The notes under the pieces: generated by a model
The model's database searches: none
Seen by the model: the letters and a program-made list of their open reading frames with translations, nothing else
What the model was told of the DNA's origin: nothing
Translations under genes and position numbers: made by a program
Shown here: in pieces, positions 4,813 to 23,415 of the stretch
How the letters are laid out: every line of letters starts with the position of its first letter
Position numbering within the stretch: the first letter of the stretch is position 1
Virus record (IMG/VR): IMGVR_UViG_3300033145_001662
Location: 1 to 27,130 of that record
DNA length: 27,130 nt
Direction: 5' to 3' (one strand)
From: a virus

Positions 4813-5358
4813 TCACGCTGTCATAACCTGCCTGCCCAACTGGCGCTGGCCATGTAGGCAGGGATGCTCGACCGTCTCGTCGACGGCCTCGGCGGCCTTG
4901 GCGGACGATGCGCCGAGGATCTGCTCGAATGTGCAGGTGTTGCACTTGGGGCATTTTTCGGGCGGGTCATTCACGGGCGAGACGGCGGCTGTGGTACATT
5001 CCACGGCCGGGACGGCCGTGCCACCTGGCGACCAGCCGCAGCCGGAGCACATCCAGCCGAGCAGCCTGCGGGCCGTCGCCCTGCGGACCTCATCCTCTAC
5101 CATGTCGGGCGTCTGAATATCTCGGAGCCGCCTCCGGCGGCGATGACCGGCTGAGATGCGAGCAGGCCGCGTTGCCAGGTTTCGCCTGGCGATCTTCCGC
5201 CACGCGCCTTCGGGCAGATGAACCTCGACGCGGCTGCGGAACTTGTCGTAGTTGCAGCGGAACTCAGCGCAGAGGTCGGTGATTGTCGCGCCGTTTGCCA
5301 GCCGCCACGCTGCCATCTGCGCCTGGGCGGGATCGGTGATGTCTTTACGCTTGCTCAT
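4813..5358 (-). CDS. HTH-like protein with zinc ribbon split by a repeat insertion
   Basis: The product has 181 residues and overlaps the upstream gene by ATGA. Residues 12-60 (AQMAAWRLANGATITDLCAE and following) look like a helix-turn-helix. The CxxC pairs Cys104/Cys107 (CSGC) and Cys136/Cys139 (CPKC) form a probable zinc ribbon. The loop between them includes GGTAVPAVE, the translation of repeat family E at 4999-5026. The C-terminal end (about 166-180) is encoded by a palindromic H-type repeat at 4828-4862. Two repeats in one small gene leave the reading frame intact. A role in transcription or DNA binding is plausible but unproven. Confidence 0.7.
   Translation of the reverse strand: MSKRKDITDPAQAQMAAWRLANGATITDLCAEFRCNYDKFRSRVEVHLPEGAWRKIARRNLATRPARISAGHRRRRRLRDIQTPDMVEDEVRRATARRLLGWMCSGCGWSPGGTAVPAVECTTAAVSPVNDPPEKCPKCNTCTFEQILGASSAKAAEAVDETVEHPCLHGQRQLGRQVMTA
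4828..4862. repeat. family H palindromic repeat in a gene 3' end
   Basis: Arms CCTGCCTGCCC and GTAGGCAGG flank a 15-base centre. Related arms (CCTGCCTACC/GGTAGGCAGG type) occur at 13483-13509 and 22363-22389. It is read in frame in the zinc-ribbon gene. Confidence 0.6.
4999..5026. repeat. family E hairpin repeat inside a gene
   Basis: CACGGCCG GGA CGGCCGTG, an 8-bp stem with a short loop followed by CCACC, lies inside the zinc-ribbon gene. Close relatives are at 7190-7213, 10453-10480 and 13472-13521. Confidence 0.75.
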
Positions 5359-5966: not shown

Positions 5967-6745
5967 CGTGCACCTCTATGCCCGCCAGCGGCGGGCAAAT
6001 TCGACATTCGAGATTCGACATTCGACATTCCGCAATCGAAGACAATCACTTCGACGTTTGTCTTGCGCCCCCACTCGAGCGCCGCCTGGTGGTCGGCGTG
6101 ATAAACGTCGATGCTGTTTCCGGTGATGACGCGGCCGGTGTCGAGGACCGGGACGGGCCGGTTGTCTGCGTAGCCGTCGACAATGACGACGCTGCCGAGC
6201 GGGATGACTGCCGGGTCGGCGGCGACGAAAAACGGGACTACGCGATCGACGCGGGCGCCGCTGTAAGTGGCGTTGCGGTATTCGCCGGCCACGAAAACGC
6301 TGTTAACTCCGCAGCAGATTTCACACGGGCAATAGGCCGTGACAACCATGCGCATTACATGCGCATGGGAATTCCGAAATCCGAAATCCGAAATCCGAAT
6401 TTCCTTGGCCGGGACACGGTCTTGGCAGCGGGCCTGGTCGGTGACGTTTGCGGACCGGCTAGAGCCGCTTGCGTCGGGGATGACAGGCCCGCCGTAGCTT
6501 TCACTGTTGCGGGCAGGCCCGCTGCCGTTGACCGCGAGTGCCTCAGCCTCAACCTGAGCCGAAGCCTCGGCTACCTCTGGAAGGAGGTGGATTGAATCGC
6601 GGAGCTTGAAAGACGCGATCAAATACCCGGCGATGCCGCCGAGCGAGAAGATCGTCAGCATGGCGAAGGTCCGCCAGAATCGCGAATCGTGAATCGCGAA
6701 TCGCAAATCGTCAAGCTGCTCGGCTTGTTCACGCGCGTTGTACAT
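5963..6745 (-). CDS. membrane-anchored 3D-domain protein, putative phage lysin
   Basis: The product has 260 residues. A single transmembrane segment (about 26-46) is followed by a low-complexity linker (50-125) and a 3D/double-psi beta-barrel domain (about 132-237). The three signature aspartates are visible: VAADP (Asp177), LDTG (Asp202) and IDVY (Asp213). The domain opens with MVVTAYCPCEICCG. The 3D family is related to MltA-type lytic transglycosylases, so peptidoglycan cleavage at the inner membrane during lysis is the likely role. Three repeat families are read in frame outside the domain: B near residue 15, A near 116-124, and C plus H at the C-terminus. A cortex-type or host-derived wall enzyme is an alternative. 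Confidence 0.8.
   Translation of the reverse strand: MYNAREQAEQLDDLRFAIHDSRFWRTFAMLTIFSLGGIAGYLIASFKLRDSIHLLPEVAEASAQVEAEALAVNGSGPARNSESYGGPVIPDASGSSRSANVTDQARCQDRVPAKEIRISDFGFRNSHAHVMRMVVTAYCPCEICCGVNSVFVAGEYRNATYSGARVDRVVPFFVAADPAVIPLGSVVIVDGYADNRPVPVLDTGRVITGNSIDVYHADHQAALEWGRKTNVEVIVFDCGMSNVESRMSNLPAAGGHRGAR
5979..5997. repeat. 8-bp hairpin, GC-rich (family H-like)
   Basis: TGCCCGCC AGC GGCGGGCA is a perfect 8-bp stem with a 3-base loop, directly joined to the family C array at 5999-6038 and translated at the C-terminus of the 3D protein. Confidence 0.7.
5999..6038. repeat. family C tandem repeat
   Basis: The sequence is built from TTCGACA/TTCGAGA-like units (complement of AATGTCGAATGTCGAATG). 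It encodes the end of the 3D protein. Other copies are at 14205-14236, 17127-17163 and 23305-23389. Confidence 0.75.
6371..6402. repeat. family A tandem repeat (8-base unit)
   Basis: Units of CCGAAATC repeat about three and a half times. It encodes residues EIRISDFGFRN between the membrane anchor and the 3D domain of the lysin-like protein. Confidence 0.8.
6677..6711. repeat. family B tandem repeat
   Basis: GAATCGCGAATCG-type units encode residues LRFAIHDSRFW just before the transmembrane segment of the 3D protein. Related arrays are at 11177-11203, 15586-15609, 22642-22676 and (degenerate) 25635-25660. Confidence 0.8.
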
Positions 6746-7143: not shown

Positions 7144-7156
7144 TTTTTTTCTCGTA

Positions 7157-7179
7157 GTACAGGCGTCCCCGCCTGTGTT
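7157..7179. repeat. family F hairpin repeat
   Basis: ACAGGCG TCCC CGCCTGT is a 7-bp stem with a 4-base loop. A near copy lies at 20489-20506 downstream of the capsid gene. It sits in the gap after the MuB-like gene, next to a family E copy. Confidence 0.75.
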
Positions 7180-7189
7180 CTTTTCTTCT

Positions 7190-7213
7190 CACGGCCGAGA
7201 CGGCCGTGCCACC
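7190..7213. repeat. family E hairpin repeat
   Basis: CACGGCCG AGA CGGCCGTG followed by CCACC. It is almost identical to the copy at 4999-5026 and lies just past the MuB stop codon in the leftward transcript. Confidence 0.75.
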
Positions 7214-8368: not shown

Positions 8369-10503
8369 TTTCTGCTGCTATCTGGGTCATGGACGGTCTC
8401 CTCTTGGGTCTGTGATGCGAGATGTTCGAGGGGGTCAACCGGGTGCTGCCTTTCGACCGGGTCCGTGCCTGTCGCGGCGACCTCGCTGAAAAACGCCGCT
8501 GCGGATTGATCCTGCTTTCGCCGCGTTGCCTTATGCTCGCGGCCGGCCTGTGCGGCGCGGTCGAGCTCGCCGTTGCCGACGAGTTTTAGGCGGGGTGCGG
8601 CGGGCTGCTTTATTGATTTCGGATCGTCGAGCATGCCGAGCGCCTGACCCGCGCGCCGCTGCATGTCCAGCATCAGGAGCGTTGCGCCCTTACGCAGCTC
8701 GTGGACGCGAGCATTGGTCTCGCGGCGGAAGCGGTTCTGTGCGGCAAGCTCGTCGGCGAGATCGTCCCCGCCTTCGAGCGGGTGGATACTGTTTTTCGGC
8801 GTGGCGATGCAAAGAAAATGGTCGGTGGTCGCGTCGAATATCGAGACCTTGGACGGGTCGCCGACGGCGTAGCGGTAGGCGATGTGCTTGGAGATATCGC
8901 GACCGCTGGCGCCACGGCGTCGCTCAAACTCCGGACCGTCGCTGATATACCAGTTCTGGAACGCGGCGACAAAGACGCCGTTGGCCTCGATGCGGACTCG
9001 CTTGCCGCGAGTAAGCAGCATGGCCAGTGTCTCGCTTGCGGGAGTGACCGGCTGGTAGTGCGGGTCGCGAAGCTCCACGAACGCGCGCAGCGGGCTTTTG
9101 CCCGCCGCCGCCGTTGCGGGCGATGGTTTGCGCAGCGAGTAGTCTTCCTCGATGTACCGCCGGAACGCCTCGCGGACGAAGGCCAGGTCGAAGTCGGCCT
9201 TGACTTCATCGGCGTTCGGAAGCTCCTTGATCTGCTCGGGGCGGTTGTCCGGTGAGTTGCCGCAGTAGGTCGGGAAGGTTTTATCGAACGGCACGACGCA
9301 AGCGCGGAACCACGGCTCTATAGGCTTGGCCTTGGCGTTGTAAGGCCGGGCCCAGTGGACGGTAACGCCGAGGGATTCCATGAGCGGGACTGTCCGCCGC
9401 TCGTCGAAAAGCTTCTGCCGCGACTTGCGGTTGCGGCCGCCGGCGACCTCGTGGGCGCGGAAGTCCTTGCCGTTGTCGAGTATGGCGTGCTGGGGCACGC
9501 CGTACTTTTCCACGGCCTGAATGAAGGCAGACGCCACGCGGTGGGCGTTGGGCGCGCCGAATGCGATTATCCAGCCGACCGGCTGCCAGCTCCTCGCGTC
9601 CAGGAAGGCGGTGAGCCACGGCCGCTGGTATGTGACGACTTCGGTCTCGCGGCCGTCGATGTTTTTGACCTGCCGGCGCGGGACGAAGAAGTCCAGCAGC
9701 CGGTGATCGGCTATCCAGCAGTTCATCGCCGGGACCAGCGACCAGTCGCGCTTGACGTACGGGACGCAGCGGTCGCGAAACTTTTTAGGGTCGCGCCCGG
9801 CGGCGAGGAGTTTGCAGTCGACTCGCTTTTTGATCCAGTTCTGCACGGTTCGCAGGCGGGGCAGCCGCCAGCCCTGCTCGACGGCGACGGCTCTGGCGAG
9901 TGAATGTATATATGGTATCGACGGTCGCTGCTCTTTGAGGTACAGACCGAGGATGTACTCCTGGGCCTCCGCGCTGAAACGGGCTTGGAGCGGCTCGCGC
10001 GGGCCGCCGCGACGGTCGATAAGGCCCGCGACGCCGCTTTTGCGATATGCCGCCAGCCAGCGCTGGAGCGCACGCTTCGAGGTGCGGGCGTCGGTGTGGT
10101 GCAGGTTCCACGTCTCGATCCAGCGCGCGGCGAACTCCGTCTTGCTCATGGAGGCGGGCTTGTGGGCCAGGCCGCCGAGATAACTCTTAATCAGCTCGTA
10201 CCGGGCGTATGCCCGCCCACGCTGCGATTCCGTCAGTGAAGCGAACTCGCTGCCGGAGGGCACGGGACCCGGCTGCGTGTCGCCTGCGGCGATTCGCAGT
10301 GCCGGCTCGCTTGCCGGGTCTATCCACCAGCCGTGCCCGCCGGCAGAGATCGCTTGAAGCTGGCCGTGCTGGCAGCGGTGGCGAACCCCGCGCTCGCCGA
10401 TGCCGAGGATCGCGGCGGCGTCGGCTACGGAAAACCAGCCTTGCGGAGGCTTGGTGGCACGGGCGTCCTCGCCCGTGGAATTGATTAGCTTAGGCTGCGC
10501 CAT
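8359..10503 (-). CDS. MuA-type DDE transposase
   Basis: The product has 714 residues from ATG 10503 (GGAGG upstream); a longer in-frame extension would translate repeat A and overlap the previous gene, so it is rejected. Residues 21-65 form the Mu-type winged HTH (GWFSVADAAAILGIGERGVR). Further DNA-binding helices follow (about 95-225). The catalytic triad is ADHR Asp266, LDNG Asp343 and KPIEPWF Glu396; spacings of 77 and 53 are close to those of MuA (Asp269, Asp336, Glu392). The C-terminal region (620-714) is charged and low complexity, where MuA contacts MuB and ClpX. Residues 9-17 are encoded by repeat E. It integrates and replicates the phage by transposition. Confidence 0.96.
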   Translation of the reverse strand: MAQPKLINSTGEDARATKPPQGWFSVADAAAILGIGERGVRHRCQHGQLQAISAGGHGWWIDPASEPALRIAAGDTQPGPVPSGSEFASLTESQRGRAYARYELIKSYLGGLAHKPASMSKTEFAARWIETWNLHHTDARTSKRALQRWLAAYRKSGVAGLIDRRGGPREPLQARFSAEAQEYILGLYLKEQRPSIPYIHSLARAVAVEQGWRLPRLRTVQNWIKKRVDCKLLAAGRDPKKFRDRCVPYVKRDWSLVPAMNCWIADHRLLDFFVPRRQVKNIDGRETEVVTYQRPWLTAFLDARSWQPVGWIIAFGAPNAHRVASAFIQAVEKYGVPQHAILDNGKDFRAHEVAGGRNRKSRQKLFDERRTVPLMESLGVTVHWARPYNAKAKPIEPWFRACVVPFDKTFPTYCGNSPDNRPEQIKELPNADEVKADFDLAFVREAFRRYIEEDYSLRKPSPATAAAGKSPLRAFVELRDPHYQPVTPASETLAMLLTRGKRVRIEANGVFVAAFQNWYISDGPEFERRRGASGRDISKHIAYRYAVGDPSKVSIFDATTDHFLCIATPKNSIHPLEGGDDLADELAAQNRFRRETNARVHELRKGATLLMLDMQRRAGQALGMLDDPKSIKQPAAPRLKLVGNGELDRAAQAGREHKATRRKQDQSAAAFFSEVAATGTDPVERQHPVDPLEHLASQTQEETVHDPDSSRKPP
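10453..10480. repeat. family E hairpin in the transposase N-terminus
   Basis: GGTGGCACGGGCG TCCT CGCCCGTGGAA has an 8-bp stem. It is read in frame as STGEDARAT, residues 9-17 of the transposase, before the HTH domain. Confidence 0.75.
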
Positions 10504-10834
10504 TGCCGCCTCCGTGATAGGTGCGCTGCGATGTGCCCTGGCCGAGTTTGACCAGTGGGTGTTCATTTCGGATTTCGGATTTCGGATTTCGGATCTTCCG
10601 GGTGTGCCTTTCGCCGTAGGTCCGGACGTGGTACTTTGTGATGACGCCGCTGTATGGGTCAACGCTGACGACGGCGGAGAAGTTGCGGCCGGCGCCGAGG
10701 ATTAACTGGCCGCGAACGTTCTCGATCGTGAGGTTACCGGCCTCGATCTTCTCGCCGTCGGCGAGCGCGGCGGACACGGCGTGCAATTCCACCGTGCCGA
10801 TTCGTCCCTTAGGGACGAGTTGCGATTTATTCAT
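10490..10834 (-). CDS. unknown protein upstream of the transposase
   Basis: The product has 114 residues. ATG at 10834 overlaps the regulator gene by ATGA, and its stop (10490) lies 14 bases inside the transposase gene. Residues 10-75 look beta-rich (GRIGTVELHAVSAALADGEK, IEAGNLTIENVRGQLILGAG, FSAVVSVDPYSGVITKYHVR). Residues about 80-90 (RKIRNPKSEIRNE) come from the repeat A array, and residues 6-11 from a micro-hairpin at 10802-10818. Mu-like phages often have a small gene between ner and A, but I cannot assign a family. Confidence 0.65.
   Translation of the reverse strand: MNKSQLVPKGRIGTVELHAVSAALADGEKIEAGNLTIENVRGQLILGAGRNFSAVVSVDPYSGVITKYHVRTYGERHTRKIRNPKSEIRNEHPLVKLGQGTSQRTYHGGGNGAA
10565..10595. 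repeat. family A tandem repeat
   Basis: Four units of TTTCGGAT (8-base period) lie in the C-terminal part of the small gene upstream of the transposase and are read in frame. Confidence 0.8.
10802..10818. repeat. micro-hairpin in a coding region
   Basis: TCGTCCC TTA GGGACGA is a perfect 7-bp stem with loop TTA, near the start of the gene at 10490-10834. Confidence 0.65.
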
Positions 10835-13471: not shown

Positions 13472-13521
13472 CACGGGCGAGACCTGCCTGCTTACCGCAG
13501 GTAGGCAGGCGCCCGTGCCAC
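13472..13521. repeat. family E hairpin interrupted by a family H hairpin
   Basis: The outer arms CACGGGCG (13472-13479) and CGCCCGTG (13510-13517), followed by CCAC, match family E. Between them lies a family H element at 13483-13509 (CCTGCC...GGTAGGCAGG). Uninterrupted E copies (for example 7190-7213) have only a 3-4 base loop at this point, so this looks like insertion of one repeat into another. Confidence 0.7.
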
Positions 13522-13529
13522 TAAAAAAA

Positions 13530-14198
13530 ATGCCAAGACGAGTGACACATTCAAAAGCATACGACGAGCTGGCGGTATACGCCGGCGTCCGGTGCGGCAT
13601 GAAAAAGCCCACTCCGCAGGCGGTGGCTAATCGCGACGACTCGCGAGAGCTGCGCGACCGGCTCTGGCTGGAGTACGAGCGGATGCACCGCGACGGCCAG
13701 ACGTACCAGCTCGACCGCGACATTATGCCGTTCTGCAAAGCGCACGGCGTAAAGGCAAGCAAGTCGTCGGTCAATCGCGACGGGCTGCGCGTCCGCGAGG
13801 GAATTAAAGCGGTGAAGCTCCGGGCGGAGCTGGCGTCGGCCGTGATGGACGCCGCCGGCAACAGCGGCGAGGACGTGTTCAAGGCCGGTCGGCTGCTGGC
13901 CGGGCAGATGATTTTCGAGGCGCTTAACGGCATGTCGATCGTGGCGCTGGAGGACCTGTCGGCCGACCCCATAAAGCTGCTGCGGATGATAGACACGCTC
14001 GGGGCGCTGTCTCGCGTAGAGGCCGATGCCGAGCGGACAGGCGTCGAGGCGGAGATGACGAAGGCCAAGCTGGCGGAGTATCACAAGTCGGCAAAACAGG
14101 AAGTCGACAGGGCCGCAAAGGCAGCCGGCGGCAAGGGGCTGACGCGGCAGGACGTCTACAAAATCCTCGACTCGGTTATGAAAGGCCAGGCGGCGTAA
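13530..14198 (+). CDS. DUF3486 (Mu gp27-like) small terminase subunit candidate
   Basis: The product has 222 residues from ATG 13530; the upstream in-frame alternative would translate repeat sequence and is rejected. It is basic at the N-terminus (MPRRVTHSKAYDEL), contains LEYERMHRDGQTYQLDRDIM, and then an HTH-like stretch (FCKAHGVKASKSSVNRDGLR), a long helical middle (ASAVMDAAGNSGEDVFKAGR) and a charged coiled C-terminus. Length, composition and place directly before a Mu gp28-like large terminase fit DUF3486, thought to be the DNA-recognition subunit for packaging. AAAAAAA precedes the ATG, giving no strong Shine-Dalgarno. Confidence 0.78.
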   Translation: MPRRVTHSKAYDELAVYAGVRCGMKKPTPQAVANRDDSRELRDRLWLEYERMHRDGQTYQLDRDIMPFCKAHGVKASKSSVNRDGLRVREGIKAVKLRAELASAVMDAAGNSGEDVFKAGRLLAGQMIFEALNGMSIVALEDLSADPIKLLRMIDTLGALSRVEADAERTGVEAEMTKAKLAEYHKSAKQEVDRAAKAAGGKGLTRQDVYKILDSVMKGQAA

Positions 14199-14204
14199 AG
14201 AACA

Positions 14205-14236
14205 AATGCCGAATGTCGAATGTCAAATGTCGAATG
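14205..14236. repeat. family C tandem repeat at the large-terminase start
   Basis: AATGCCGAATGTCGAATGTC and following units supply two in-frame ATG codons (14206 and 14227). The N-terminal residues NVECQMSN are repeat-derived. Confidence 0.75.
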
Positions 14237-15616: not shown

Positions 15617-18196
15617 ATGTCAGGGACGACCAAAGAAATTCGAGATCCGAGATCCGAGATTCGAGATTCGTGCGCTGCGGCGCTGGCCGAGATGGCCGGC
15701 GTGCCGGCGTCGGCGGCGGCAGACATGGCAGCGGCGGCGAAAGACCTCACGCTCGGCCAGTACGCCAGGCTGTGGGAAGCGGGCATGGAAGGCTCGCTCA
15801 GCGCCGGCGGGCTAAACGAGCCTATGCGGCCCTACCAGCAGTCGCAGTGGGTGTACAAGTGCGTCAAGGCCCTGTACACCACCGGCGCGGGAATACCCCT
15901 GCGGCTCTCAACCGAAACGGACGGGCTGAAGTACCACGCCAAGAGCTACCGCGCTGCAATTCGCCGCAGCAGGAAACACTCACTGCGCCCGATGCCCGGC
16001 TGCAAGAGCGTTTGCGTGGGTGGTGTGGGTGGCGTCGGCAAGGCGGCAGACGGCGAGCTGGTGGAGGCCGGCGAGGCGTGGGAGCTGCTGAACCGCCCCA
16101 ACAGCTACCAGGACTGGCCGCAGTTTTTCTCGGCCCTGATCGGGTACTTCTATGCGCGCGGCAAGGTTGCACTGGTGATGACGGACATGGTCGGCAACTC
16201 ACCCGGCGAGATGCACGTTATCGACGGCAAGCACATCAAGCCGGTATGGGCACGGGATGACAATGACATGCCCGTTCTCCTGGGCTATAAGTACCGCGCG
16301 CCAAAGAGCGGCAAGGAAATCCCACTCTCCACGGATGAGGTCAAGTACTGGGCGCTCTGGGACGACAGCGACGATCCGCTGGGCGGGATGGCGCCGAGCT
16401 TGCCGGGCAGGCTGGCGATTGCCACCGATTACAACGCATCACTGTTCAACGCGTCGGCACTTTCCAACGGCTGCGATATCGGCATCCACGTCGACTTCCC
16501 GCAGGCGCTCACGCCGGAGCAGCAGGAGCAGTACCGAACCACGCTCCGCCAGAGACACCAGGGTGCGGCCAGGGCTGCGAGGCCGCTTATCACTGAGGGC
16601 GGGGCGAAGGTGTCCGAGCTCAGCGGCGCGGCAAAGGATATGGCATGGGACAAACTCAAGGGGATGACGCGGATCGAGATATGTGCGCTCTATGACGTGC
16701 CTCCGGTCGTTGCCGGATGGGTCGAGGCCGCCGGAGACAGCTCGGCCTATACCGAGAATGCCCTTAAGCAATTTTACCAGCAGGCGATTTTCCCGATGCT
16801 GGACTTCTTCGCTCCGGCACTGCAGGAGCTTGTATCACGATTCGACGTAAGGCTTGTGCTGTGGTTTGATGTTGAAGATCAGCCGGTAGTCCAGAAGATG
16901 CGACTGAGCCGTATCGAGTCCGGCGATAAGCTCGTCAAGTGGGGCGTGCCGGTCGAGGATATAAACGATCTGCTCGACCTCGGCCTGCCGGACCGCCCGC
17001 AGCATAGGGTAGGCTTTATTCCCGTCGGCATGCAGCCGGTGGCGGATGCGATGACGCCGCTGCCGCCGCTGGATGAGGGGGCGAGCGCGGATGACAGCGA
17101 TGAGCTGGACCAAACCGCCGAACAGCGGAATGTCGAATGTCGAATGCCGAATGTCGAATTGAATGCGGTTGAAAAGGCCGCCGCCGAGCGAATATGGCGT
17201 GCCTGGCACGCCAGTTTCACGCCGCTTTCCAAGCGGCTGGCCAGGCTGCTCATTACCAACTACTCCGCCCAGGAGCGGTGGATCGTCAAGCTTCTTAAGG
17301 ACAAACTGCCTGCCGCTGAGGACGCCAAGGACTCAGAGGGTGTTGTCGTTAAAAGCAATAAAACAACCTCAGCGTCCCCTGAGACCTCTGCGGCTATCAA
17401 GAGCGAGACCATCATCGCGGAGATTCTGGTCGACGTGTTCGACAACGCCGAGGAGCTTCGGAAATTCCGCGCTCGCCTCGCCCCCGGAGTCGGCGACGCC
17501 TACGAACTGGGCGTCCGCCAGGCGGCATCCGAGGCCGGCCTGACGGGCGATGCGGCAAAAACACTCGTCGACAACGTGACCGGCGGCAGCCACGTTCGCG
17601 CGGCGATGCAGAGCGATACGATAACCATCGCCGCAAAGACCAACGCGTTTACGCGGCAGCATCTTCGCAAGTCCCTGGTCGACGGGCTCGGCAATAATGA
17701 GTCCATCAACGAGCTGGCAGACCGCGTGCAGACGTTCATGGGCAACCGTCGAAAATCGGCACTTGTCCAGGCTCGCAACGCCGTGGGCCAGTCGCTCTCA
17801 CGGGCCAGGCACACCGGCCACGTCGCCGCCGGTATGACGCACAAGAGCTGGATATATTCGCGAGGCCCCGGCGATCGCCGCGAGGCGCACATCGCCGCCG
17901 AGGCGACGTACGCAAAGAAGCCTATTCCCATGTCGCAGCCGTTTGTAATCAACGGCGCCCACCTGATGTACCCGCGAGACACGGCCGGGCCGCCGGGCGA
18001 GATCATCAACTGCGCGTGCCTTAAACTCGCGATGCGAGTAAATCCGAAATCCGAAATCACAAATCCGAAATTCGCCGACCTCGCGCAGCCGCTGCTGGCG
18101 CGGGGATTCGTGACGTACGCGGGGATGCTCGCCCAGAGGGCGAATGAACAATTACCAATGCCTAATGACCAAACCAGGGAAAAAGACAATGCCTAA
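15617..18196 (+). CDS. portal protein fused to MuF-like head morphogenesis domain
   Basis: The product has 859 residues. Residues about 45-490 match HK97-type portal architecture (NRPNSYQDWPQFFSALIGYF, LKGMTRIEICALYDVPPVVA, TENALKQFYQQAIFPMLDFF); portals form the dodecameric ring at the packaging vertex. Residues about 600-805 match the SPP1 gp7/MuF family (RRKSALVQARNAVGQSLSRA, ending GEIINCACLKL). Repeats are translated at residues 7-18 (EIRDPRSEIRDS), 504-515 (NVECRMPNVE), 565-595 and 808-819 (NPKSEITNPK). The joint between the two functional parts is thus occupied by repeats C and D. Most phages encode these as two genes. Real start uncertain because the N-terminus is repeat-derived. Confidence 0.9.
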   Translation: MSGTTKEIRDPRSEIRDSCAAALAEMAGVPASAAADMAAAAKDLTLGQYARLWEAGMEGSLSAGGLNEPMRPYQQSQWVYKCVKALYTTGAGIPLRLSTETDGLKYHAKSYRAAIRRSRKHSLRPMPGCKSVCVGGVGGVGKAADGELVEAGEAWELLNRPNSYQDWPQFFSALIGYFYARGKVALVMTDMVGNSPGEMHVIDGKHIKPVWARDDNDMPVLLGYKYRAPKSGKEIPLSTDEVKYWALWDDSDDPLGGMAPSLPGRLAIATDYNASLFNASALSNGCDIGIHVDFPQALTPEQQEQYRTTLRQRHQGAARAARPLITEGGAKVSELSGAAKDMAWDKLKGMTRIEICALYDVPPVVAGWVEAAGDSSAYTENALKQFYQQAIFPMLDFFAPALQELVSRFDVRLVLWFDVEDQPVVQKMRLSRIESGDKLVKWGVPVEDINDLLDLGLPDRPQHRVGFIPVGMQPVADAMTPLPPLDEGASADDSDELDQTAEQRNVECRMPNVELNAVEKAAAERIWRAWHASFTPLSKRLARLLITNYSAQERWIVKLLKDKLPAAEDAKDSEGVVVKSNKTTSASPETSAAIKSETIIAEILVDVFDNAEELRKFRARLAPGVGDAYELGVRQAASEAGLTGDAAKTLVDNVTGGSHVRAAMQSDTITIAAKTNAFTRQHLRKSLVDGLGNNESINELADRVQTFMGNRRKSALVQARNAVGQSLSRARHTGHVAAGMTHKSWIYSRGPGDRREAHIAAEATYAKKPIPMSQPFVINGAHLMYPRDTAGPPGEIINCACLKLAMRVNPKSEITNPKFADLAQPLLARGFVTYAGMLAQRANEQLPMPNDQTREKDNA
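15637..15682. repeat. A/B-type tandem repeat in portal N-terminus
   Basis: Units of GAGATCCGAGATCCGA, then GATTCGAGATTCG, are read as residues EIRDPRSEIRDS before the portal domain begins. Confidence 0.75.
17127..17163. repeat. family C repeat at the portal-MuF junction
   Basis: GGAATGTCGAATGTCGAATG and following units are read in frame as QRNVECRMPNVELN, between portal and MuF-like parts. Confidence 0.8.
17313..17400. repeat. family D long imperfect inverted repeat, in frame
   Basis: Left arm GCCGCTGAGGACGCCAAGGA and right arm CCCTGAGACCTCTGCGGC flank an A/T-rich centre containing AAAACAACCTC. It is read in frame (AAEDAKDSEGVV...SETSAA type) in the fused portal protein. Relatives are at 18870-18903, 22341-22402 and 24242-24322. 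Confidence 0.75.
18041..18073. repeat. family A repeat near portal-MuF C-terminus
   Basis: AATCCGAAATCCGAAATC and following units, read as NPKSEITNPKF, lie just after the conserved INCACLKLA end of the MuF-like domain. Confidence 0.8.
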
Positions 18197-19115
18197 AGAA
18201 AATACAAAAACCATCGGAATTGAAAAAGGCACCGTCGATCGCGACAGCGACGAGGCACAGGGACGATTCATCAAGGCCTACTCCAAAGGGGTTGACCTTG
18301 CGACAAGGACCATCGACGGCATTGCCAGCACTATCAGCCTGGACCGCGACGAGGAGATTATTCTGCCTTCGGCGTTTGAAAAAACCATTCCTCTGTTCCT
18401 GGCCGGAAGCGCGCCGATGGTTAATGCGCATCAGCATCGCGGCCCGGAGGCCACACAGGTCGGCTGGATCATGGAGATGCGCATTGCCGGGCAGAAAATT
18501 CCGTTTAAGGGCCGGTTCGTGAACGACACCGAAGGACCGGCCGAGCGGTTCTGGCGGCTCGCCAGCGATCCCAAGGGCAAGGGGATTCAATTCTCGATCG
18601 GTTTCATGCCGGTCCGCTGGATTTACGGCTCGGTGGCCGACATCGTCCGGGAGTTTCCGGAGCTTAAGAAGATACTCACGGAGCTGAAGCCGGAAGATCG
18701 CCTGCGGGTGTATACGGAGATCGAACTGCTGGAAGTGTCGTGCGTACCTGTCGGCTCCAACCGTGATGCGACGCAACTGCTGGCCGCCAAAGCAGCCTCG
18801 GAAAACGGCGAAAGGGCACTCGACGAATTCGAGTCCGCAGTGGCGCAGAAGGTGGTTGAAAAACTGGGCGCCTCAGAGACCTCCGCGACCTCTGCGGCTG
18901 AAATCAAAACTCGTCAATCCGAAATTCTCGACAAGCTCAGCGAGCTTGCCGAAGCGATAGAGCTGTCGTCTGACACGCTCGGCCAGGTTCCTCCGGGTGA
19001 TTTAGGGACGCCCCCACCGGAAGGCCGCAAAAACGAACTTGGTCGGCCCGGCGACAGCCCAGGGGCGAAACTCAGGGATGCAGCCGAAGGGCTGCTCAAG
19101 ACGTGCACCGACTAA
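18189..19115 (+). CDS. HK97-type prohead protease (peptidase S78)
   Basis: The product has 308 residues from ATG 18189, overlapping the portal gene by 8 bases; the upstream ATG (18144) would lie deeper in the portal and encode repeat-like sequence. The protease core holds the signature His in VNAHQHR (His81 or His83) and Ser136 in FSIGF. The sequence IDGIASTISLDRDEEIILPS and FKGRFVNDTEGPAERFW fit the family. It cleaves the delta domain of the capsid protein in the prohead. The C-terminal 100 residues are variable and include a D-type repeat at 18870-18903. ATGs in the next gene follow 20 bases on. Confidence 0.9.
   Translation: MPKENTKTIGIEKGTVDRDSDEAQGRFIKAYSKGVDLATRTIDGIASTISLDRDEEIILPSAFEKTIPLFLAGSAPMVNAHQHRGPEATQVGWIMEMRIAGQKIPFKGRFVNDTEGPAERFWRLASDPKGKGIQFSIGFMPVRWIYGSVADIVREFPELKKILTELKPEDRLRVYTEIELLEVSCVPVGSNRDATQLLAAKAASENGERALDEFESAVAQKVVEKLGASETSATSAAEIKTRQSEILDKLSELAEAIELSSDTLGQVPPGDLGTPPPEGRKNELGRPGDSPGAKLRDAAEGLLKTCTD
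18870..18903. repeat. family D repeat arm inside protease gene
   Basis: GCCTCAGAGACCTCCGCGAC then CTCTGCGGCTGAA; it encodes ASETSATSAAE in the disordered C-terminal region. Confidence 0.7.
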
Positions 19116-20483: not shown

Positions 20484-20509
20484 GGTAGCACAGGCGTCCC
20501 GCCTGTGAA
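20484..20509. repeat. family F hairpin downstream of capsid gene
   Basis: GGTAGCACAGGCG TCC CGCCTGTGAAG has an 8-bp stem around a 3-base loop, directly after the capsid stop. It closely matches 7157-7179. Confidence 0.75.
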
Positions 20510-22340: not shown

Positions 22341-22402
22341 CAGCCTCTGAGTCCTCAGCGATCTGCCTACCAGCCGCTAGGCAGGCAGGCCTCTGCGGCT
22401 AA
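22341..22402. repeat. family D repeat interrupted by a family H hairpin
   Basis: D arms GCCTCTGAGTCCTCAGCGA (22342-22360) and CCTCTGCGGCTAA (22390-22402) flank an H element (22363-22389, CTGCCTACC...TAGGCAGGCAGG). D copies elsewhere lack this element here. It is the second nested case in the window. Confidence 0.7.
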
Positions 22403-22418
22403 CAGACAGGAGCATGAC

Positions 22419-22640
22419 ATGGTAACGGTAAAAGTGAAGGCACTGAAGGAAGTCAAAGACAACGGCGTACTGCATCAGCCGGGAGAGGTGTTCGACATGG
22501 AAATCTCACTGGTCAAGCCGCACAAGGCTGCAGGGCAAATTGCCCTTGCGGAAAATCCGAAATCCGAAACCCGAAATCCGAAAGCTAAACAACAGCGGAC
22601 GCCGCGCGACAAGCAGCAGCGAAGCGGCGAGAACAAATAG
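22419..22640 (+). CDS. small phage structural-region protein (VKALKEVKDNG...)
   Basis: The product has 73 residues from ATG 22419 (ACAGGAG upstream). The first 45 residues (MVTVKVKALKEVKDNGVLHQ then PGEVFDME) are a beta-rich unit seen in many phages next to head-tail connector genes, of unknown role. Residues about 46-55 (ENPKSETRNPK) are encoded by repeat A at 22553-22583. The rest is a basic low-complexity tail (QQRTPRDKQQRSGENK). The tail is therefore probably a repeat-derived extension. Confidence 0.7.
   Translation: MVTVKVKALKEVKDNGVLHQPGEVFDMEISLVKPHKAAGQIALAENPKSETRNPKAKQQRTPRDKQQRSGENK
22553..22583. repeat. family A repeat in small gene C-terminus
   Basis: AAAATCCGAAATCCGAAACC and further units, adjacent to the palindrome AGGGCAAATTGCCCT (22542-22556). 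Confidence 0.75.
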
Positions 22641-23304: not shown

Positions 23305-23389
23305 CGGAATGTCGAATTGCTAATGACGAATGACGAATGGCGAATGGCGAATGGCGAATGGCGAATGGCGAATGGCGAATGGCGAATGA
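23305..23389. repeat. family C array with eight heptamers
   Basis: After two or three degenerate AATGTCGAATT/AATGACG units, CGAATGG repeats seven times without error (23334-23382), then CGAATGA. With a 7-base unit every frame is crossed. The next gene's true start (23416) lies after the array. Copy number is expected to vary between isolates. Confidence 0.85.
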
Positions 23390-23415
23390 AAAACTCAGAA
23401 CACAGAGGTGCAGAG

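Follow-up and report, generated by a model that had tools for sequence, protein, structure and literature searches.

The nesting of REPs within palindromes is already published, with examples reported in a study of GTAG-tagged REPs (A. variabilis GTAG-15, T. roseum GTAG-23 and H. neapolitanus CGTC-1; Di Nocera et al., 2013; PMC3733652), as is the insertion of IS elements into REPs. IS1397, IS621, ISKpn1, ISPsy8 and ISPpu9 all enter REPs at a fixed point; ISPsy8 does so at the symmetry axis of the hairpin and leaves a 3 bp duplication (PMC1525189).

Here we describe a short palindrome, H, in the loop of a hairpin repeat, E, in phage DNA. The window, by which we mean the whole stretch of DNA analysed, is a complete 27,130-base IMG/VR record (IMGVR_UViG_3300033145_001662). 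E, and a second family, K, found in a related genome, resemble the GTAG-tagged REPs (PMC3733652) in being short, dispersed hairpins with a GTRG tag at one end and often in inverted pairs. In contrast to the nested REPs of that study, the insert here is free of GTAG and CGTC tags, and the REP serves as target rather than insert. As with IS elements in REPs (PMC1525189), a mobile unit appears to enter a REP at a fixed point, but H measures ∼20 bp, has no coding content and leaves no duplication behind. The Rickettsia palindromic elements (RPE; named in PMC3733652) are likewise small palindromes dispersed by insertion; we set H apart from them by description, in that RPEs often lie in frame within genes whereas H was seen here mainly in other repeats. 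What looks new is a tagless palindrome of ∼20 bp, with several exact empty sites, without a known mobiliser and in a phage setting.

Results

A palindrome nested in a REP

Read from its tag, E consists of GTGG (or GTAG) followed by CACGGGCG-TCT-CGCCCGTG. A scan for E found five empty copies in the window, all with loops of 3–4 nt; three had been listed in a first-pass annotation of this DNA and two, with hairpins at 7158–7177 and 20489–20507, are additional:

5002–5024 (hairpin 5002–5020), minus strand: empty E, GTGG tag, loop TCC
7190–7212 (hairpin 7190–7208), minus strand: empty E, GTGG tag, loop TCT
10454–10477 (hairpin 10458–10477), plus strand: empty E, GTGG tag, loop TCCT
7154–7177 (hairpin 7158–7177), plus strand: empty E variant, GTAG tag, TACAGGCG-TCCC-CGCCTGTG
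20485–20507 (hairpin 20489–20507), plus strand: empty E variant, GTAG tag, CACAGGCG-TCC-CGCCTGTG

REPs are imperfect palindromes of 20–40 bp, and E spans 23–24 bp with its tag and has an 8-bp stem. An unpaired GTAG-like tag, GTGG or GTAG, stands at one end of every window copy; this result is partly one of construction because the scan demanded a GTRG-like tetranucleotide, yet both forms occur. Copies are many and dispersed, numbering tens in several planctomycete genomes, and include inverted pairs (L022 3804/3832, L070 7233/7263, L089 3005/3033). E matches the GTAG REP superfamily in layout, with a GTRG tag ahead of an 8-bp stem and a 3–4 nt loop, and we regard it as a REP; the REP-like character proposed for these repeats is borne out for E.

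The block at 13472–13521 reads CACGGGCG-AGA-CCTGCCTGCTTACCGCAGGTAGGCAGG-CGCCCGTG-CCAC and is composed as follows:

13472–13479, minus strand: E arm CACGGGCG (sequence and E scan)
13480–13482, minus strand: E loop AGA, TCT on the tagged strand, left of H (sequence and E scan)
13483–13509, no strand assigned: H1, a 27-nt palindrome in the E loop (fold and scan; junction as in the filled E copies of the related genome G001, below)
13510–13517, minus strand: E arm CGCCCGTG (sequence and E scan)
13518–13521, minus strand: REP tag, CCAC here and GTGG on the minus strand (E scan)

The 27-nt palindrome sits between GAGA and CGCCC in an intact E hairpin (13472–13517), whose 8-bp arms pair perfectly, and by itself folds into an 11-bp stem. 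Calculated with RNA parameters, the folding energies are −17.1 kcal/mol for the H1 insert alone, −34.1 kcal/mol for the whole of E(H) and −14.2 kcal/mol for one empty E. The hairpin within a hairpin reported at first pass is therefore confirmed. A set of 200 first-order Markov sequences contained no empty E and no E carrying a long insert, and a chance origin of E and E(H) in the window is negligible.

H had also been reported inside a second repeat, D:

22341–22361, no strand assigned: D, left part (sequence)
22362–22389, no strand assigned: H2, a 28-nt H-like palindrome inserted in D (fold and scan)
22390–22402, no strand assigned: D, right part (sequence)
18880–18898, no strand assigned: D copy without H, CCTCCGCGACCTCTGCGGC, the empty counterpart of 22341–22402 (sequence scan)

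This nest is present, and the filled and empty forms differ approximately by H alone; D itself is a short tandem-type repeat (CCTCTGCGG/CCGCAGAGG) and not a hairpin. The two nests, taken at first pass as independent events, need not represent two insertions in this phage. A third H-like arm pair, CCTGCCTGCC..GTAGGCAGG, with ∼17 extra bases mid-way, lies at 4827–4862. Tandem repeats of 7-mers such as GAATGTC and AATCCGA are scattered over the window (5997–6033, 6369–6403, 10565–10598, 14197–14236, 17125–17160, 22539–22586 and 23307–23395); similar repeats often host H in other genomes.

H is a dispersed 20-nt element

The consensus of H, CCTGCCTRCCGGYAGGCAGG, is 20 nt long; H1 (27 nt) and H2 (28 nt) are diverged and longer. 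Its 18-base core occurred 70 times in G001, 43 times in G023, 31 times in G026 and 13 times in G005, and was absent from 131 of 150 relatives, while a control with the reversed pattern matched in three genomes only. The full 20-mer was present in 42 viral stretches. Two subtypes, of 20 nt and of 21 nt (GGCAAGG), occur in G001, and the majority of the H copies sampled in G026 belong to one composite family. There, H was seen within a larger repeat (L120 3004, L123 9118, L126 8157, L128 14464) with a variable inner stretch, laid out as CATGGCGAC-ACGCG-variable-GCGGG-H-TCGCCATG.

H is a near-perfect palindrome without GTAG or CGTC, its flank fixed only as a purine at −1, and empty and filled pairs in E, K, D and a tRNA gene show no target-site duplication of the kind left by MITEs. 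Because it has neither the tag of the one nor the duplication of the other, we place H in neither the REP nor the MITE family. PAGRQ-like peptides are common in MAG proteins and may offer a lead; literature searches with H itself or with the peptide it would encode, PAGRQ, returned nothing relevant.

If H had been made in place by replication errors, for example by template switching in a quasi-palindrome, and were immobile, the length and divergence of the window copies and the other palindromic extensions borne by some G001 loops would be accounted for. The same 20-nt sequence, however, turns up far more often than chance would allow, in contexts and genomes that are unrelated, and one consensus at unrelated sites argues against an origin in place as the main process, which we consider very unlikely.

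Empty and filled sites coexist

The window is a phage record, and related DNA was used to compare empty and filled sites. When the genome collection was scanned for H next to an E arm, only one MAG matched, Planctomycetales CSMAG_1105 (G001). A 461-kb sample of this MAG held 19 empty and 23 filled E copies, a count that leaves out one automatic match (L105 11586, a false positive) and in which the filled share is biased upward because the sample was picked partly for its H content. In nearly all of the filled copies H lies between GGGCG and TCT or TCC, the same junction as in the window. G016, G130, G036 and G007 contain tens of empty E and no consensus H, and H is also found where E is nearly absent, for example in G023. 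Had every E copy contained H, the nest would have been read at first pass as ancestral structure; the 19 empty copies in G001 and the E-rich genomes without consensus H show that this is not so. Since G001 has E both with and without H, we regard the nesting as a real insertion and not as old structure. Scans of viral contigs for the nested pattern gave no match; looser matches outside G001, among those listed, were chance or paired repeats.

Other targets behave in the same way. The second REP family of G001, K, has the empty loop CGAACGCAGTGAG and the filled form CGAACG-H-CAGTGAG, with the junction CGAACG^CAGTGAG, and two further G001 repeats, F3 and F4, occur in both empty and filled forms, the match being approximate. 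A viral tRNA-Met gene (L186) carries H in its variable loop at 2284–2303 and is recognized by ARAGORN whether H is present or the flanks are joined; in L196 (515–534) H lies in the D-loop of a partial tRNA gene. For two viral H sites, same-locus patterns retrieved filled contigs only and no empty match. The occurrence of E, K and the two other G001 repeats in empty and filled states, together with H in the tRNA-Met loop, leads us to treat H as an inserted element. K loops in G001 exist in three states, a simple 13-nt loop, an H-filled loop and a palindromic extension of ∼28 nt (e.g. GAGGTTGAGGCCATTTGGCCTCGACCTC), as seen at L091 10732, L100, L098 3666 and others.

Palindromes are well known to be deleted during replication, and E(H) might in principle be an original long hairpin, with the empty E copies arising from it when slippage, or a deletion spanning the palindrome, removed H. 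Such an ancestral nest does not sit well with the abundance of empty E where consensus H is absent, with H in a tRNA gene that in its standard form lacks it, or with H in K, F3, F4 and tandem repeats; it is already disfavoured, and we find it scarcely tenable.

Junction rule and loop preference

Junctions of exact H copies are purine^pyrimidine at 46 of 67 independent loci, as against ∼17 expected (P = 7e-14), and those of the window, GA^CG and GA^(T)CC, fit; no target duplication is visible at H sites. More H sites conform to a purine^pyrimidine junction without duplication than to loop targeting.

The first-pass annotation had proposed that H insertion is aimed at loops or hairpins. In G001, an outer stem (score 8 or more) encloses 36 of the 76 H copies, compared with 3.2% of random positions, and 4 of 15 when counted by flank family (P = 0.001). 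The bias is real, with E, K and F3 all filled in the loop, although part of it may stem from copying of the composite, and the loop share is inflated because copies of E or K broken in the stem escape recognition. The tRNA variable-loop and D-loop cases also favour loop targeting. Against it, D is no hairpin, H was inside hairpins at only 1 of 16 sites in G023, no more commonly than random positions, and at 1 of 39 independent loci in viral contigs, which is background. These background rates indicate that a loop location is a trait of some genomes and repeat families and not a rule of H. A swap-partner permutation of H flanks was confounded by repeat families. Insertion stands, since empty and filled states coexist in G001, while targeting to loops or hairpins does not stand as proposed: it is partly supported, by enrichment in G001 and not in G023 or viral contigs, and insertion aimed specifically at hairpin loops we think rather unlikely.

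One event or many

Each of the two H subtypes, of 20 nt and 21 nt, was found in combination with either E arm type (GGCG or GCCG) and with TCT as well as TCC loops. Because the subtypes combine in this way, a single founder without recombination is insufficient; the diversity of E(H) requires either that H entered the same step more than once or that gene conversion took place between the copies.

A single insertion of H may have made a longer REP, E(H), of which the composite alone was then copied by REP transposition or gene conversion, so that H would have no affinity for loops and the shared junction would reflect descent. The single junction in nearly all filled E, the near confinement of the 21-nt subtype in G001 to E, and the lack of hairpin bias in G023 and at viral loci would all follow. 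Recombination or repeated mutation is then required to unlink the H subtypes from E arm and loop type, however, and H has inserted separately in K, F3 and F4. We consider copying of the composite alone possible, though not probable.

The phage locus in relatives

Pfam matches in the window include a Mu transposase DNA-binding domain, an AAA ATPase, Gp27, terminase, portal and capsid; it is a Mu-like phage of planctomycete type. A gp27 query found no relatives in viral contigs and one distant match in 397 genomes of the class; terminase and capsid queries retrieved phage relatives better. In the nearest of these (L214, terminase 77% identical) the upstream gene abuts gp27, and because no intergenic DNA precedes gp27, both E and H are absent at the locus. 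L215 and L212 have 7-mer tandem repeats before gp27 instead of E(H). At the position of D(H), upstream of a DUF7210 gene, L259 has a different hairpin, and the matching region of L263 and of L265 contains inverted 7-mer arrays. The gene junctions that hold E(H) and D(H) gather different small repeats in different relatives. Repeats at or near these junctions (L259 8180–8470, L263 8700–8960, L265 7300–7570, L215 430–680 and L212 2150–2430) include another nested hairpin, CACGGCCG..CGGCCGTG. The relatives show gain or loss of the whole of E(H) at the window locus, and not the order E then H; an allele with E alone was not found there.

Candidate movers

The window has no Y1_Tnp match even at an E-value of 1, in line with the earlier statement that a trans-acting RAYT/TnpA-REP enzyme is absent from it. 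RAYT/TnpA-REP systems (PMC2817692, PMC8266576) are the obvious candidate movers of E and K, and one of the two Y1_Tnp matches in G001 lies beside K, not E. This gene (L098 3852–4487, minus strand, contig C305) has a K REP pair on its 3′ side and H copies upstream. Unlike a RAYT, its product is a LexA–Y1 fusion (PF01726 and PF01797) with HVR where HUH is expected. Y1 counts do not track H counts (70 H and two Y1 in G001; no H and 14 Y1 in G016) and lend no support to a RAYT as a candidate mover of H. Judged by sequence, E and K look like REPs.

Discussion

The block is a composite, with empty and filled states in one genome, a common insertion point and precise empty sites elsewhere, including a tRNA gene. 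We favour, at a probability of roughly 0.6, the reading that E is a REP, that H is a separate palindrome inserted in its loop by joining of single-stranded DNA, that E(H) later multiplied, and that the repeats came from the host. H would be a separate palindromic repeat put into the E loop at GGGCG^TCT with no visible target duplication. The missing duplication and the loop cases suggest that it travels as single-stranded DNA, which a putative strand-transfer enzyme would join to an unpaired purine^pyrimidine step, often where a hairpin on the lagging strand exposes its loop. Copies of E(H) may then have multiplied by repeated insertion at that step, together with REP-type copying or gene conversion. 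The phage probably acquired its E/H repeats from a planctomycete host.

More tentatively, H could exemplify a mobile palindrome that is both minimal (∼20 bp) and tagless. A putative enzyme acting on single-stranded DNA would join it repeatedly, with no target duplication, to unpaired purine^pyrimidine steps in REP loops, tRNA loops and tandem-repeat junctions, and the palindrome would move between bacteria and phages; we hold this wider proposal to be possible at best.

Exact empty and filled H sites in several targets, among them a REP loop and a tRNA variable loop, make the insertion rule directly readable and allow the mover to be sought. The case of H bears on how REPs and other tiny palindromes spread, and a phage that carries nested REP-type repeats is a possible route for them between hosts.
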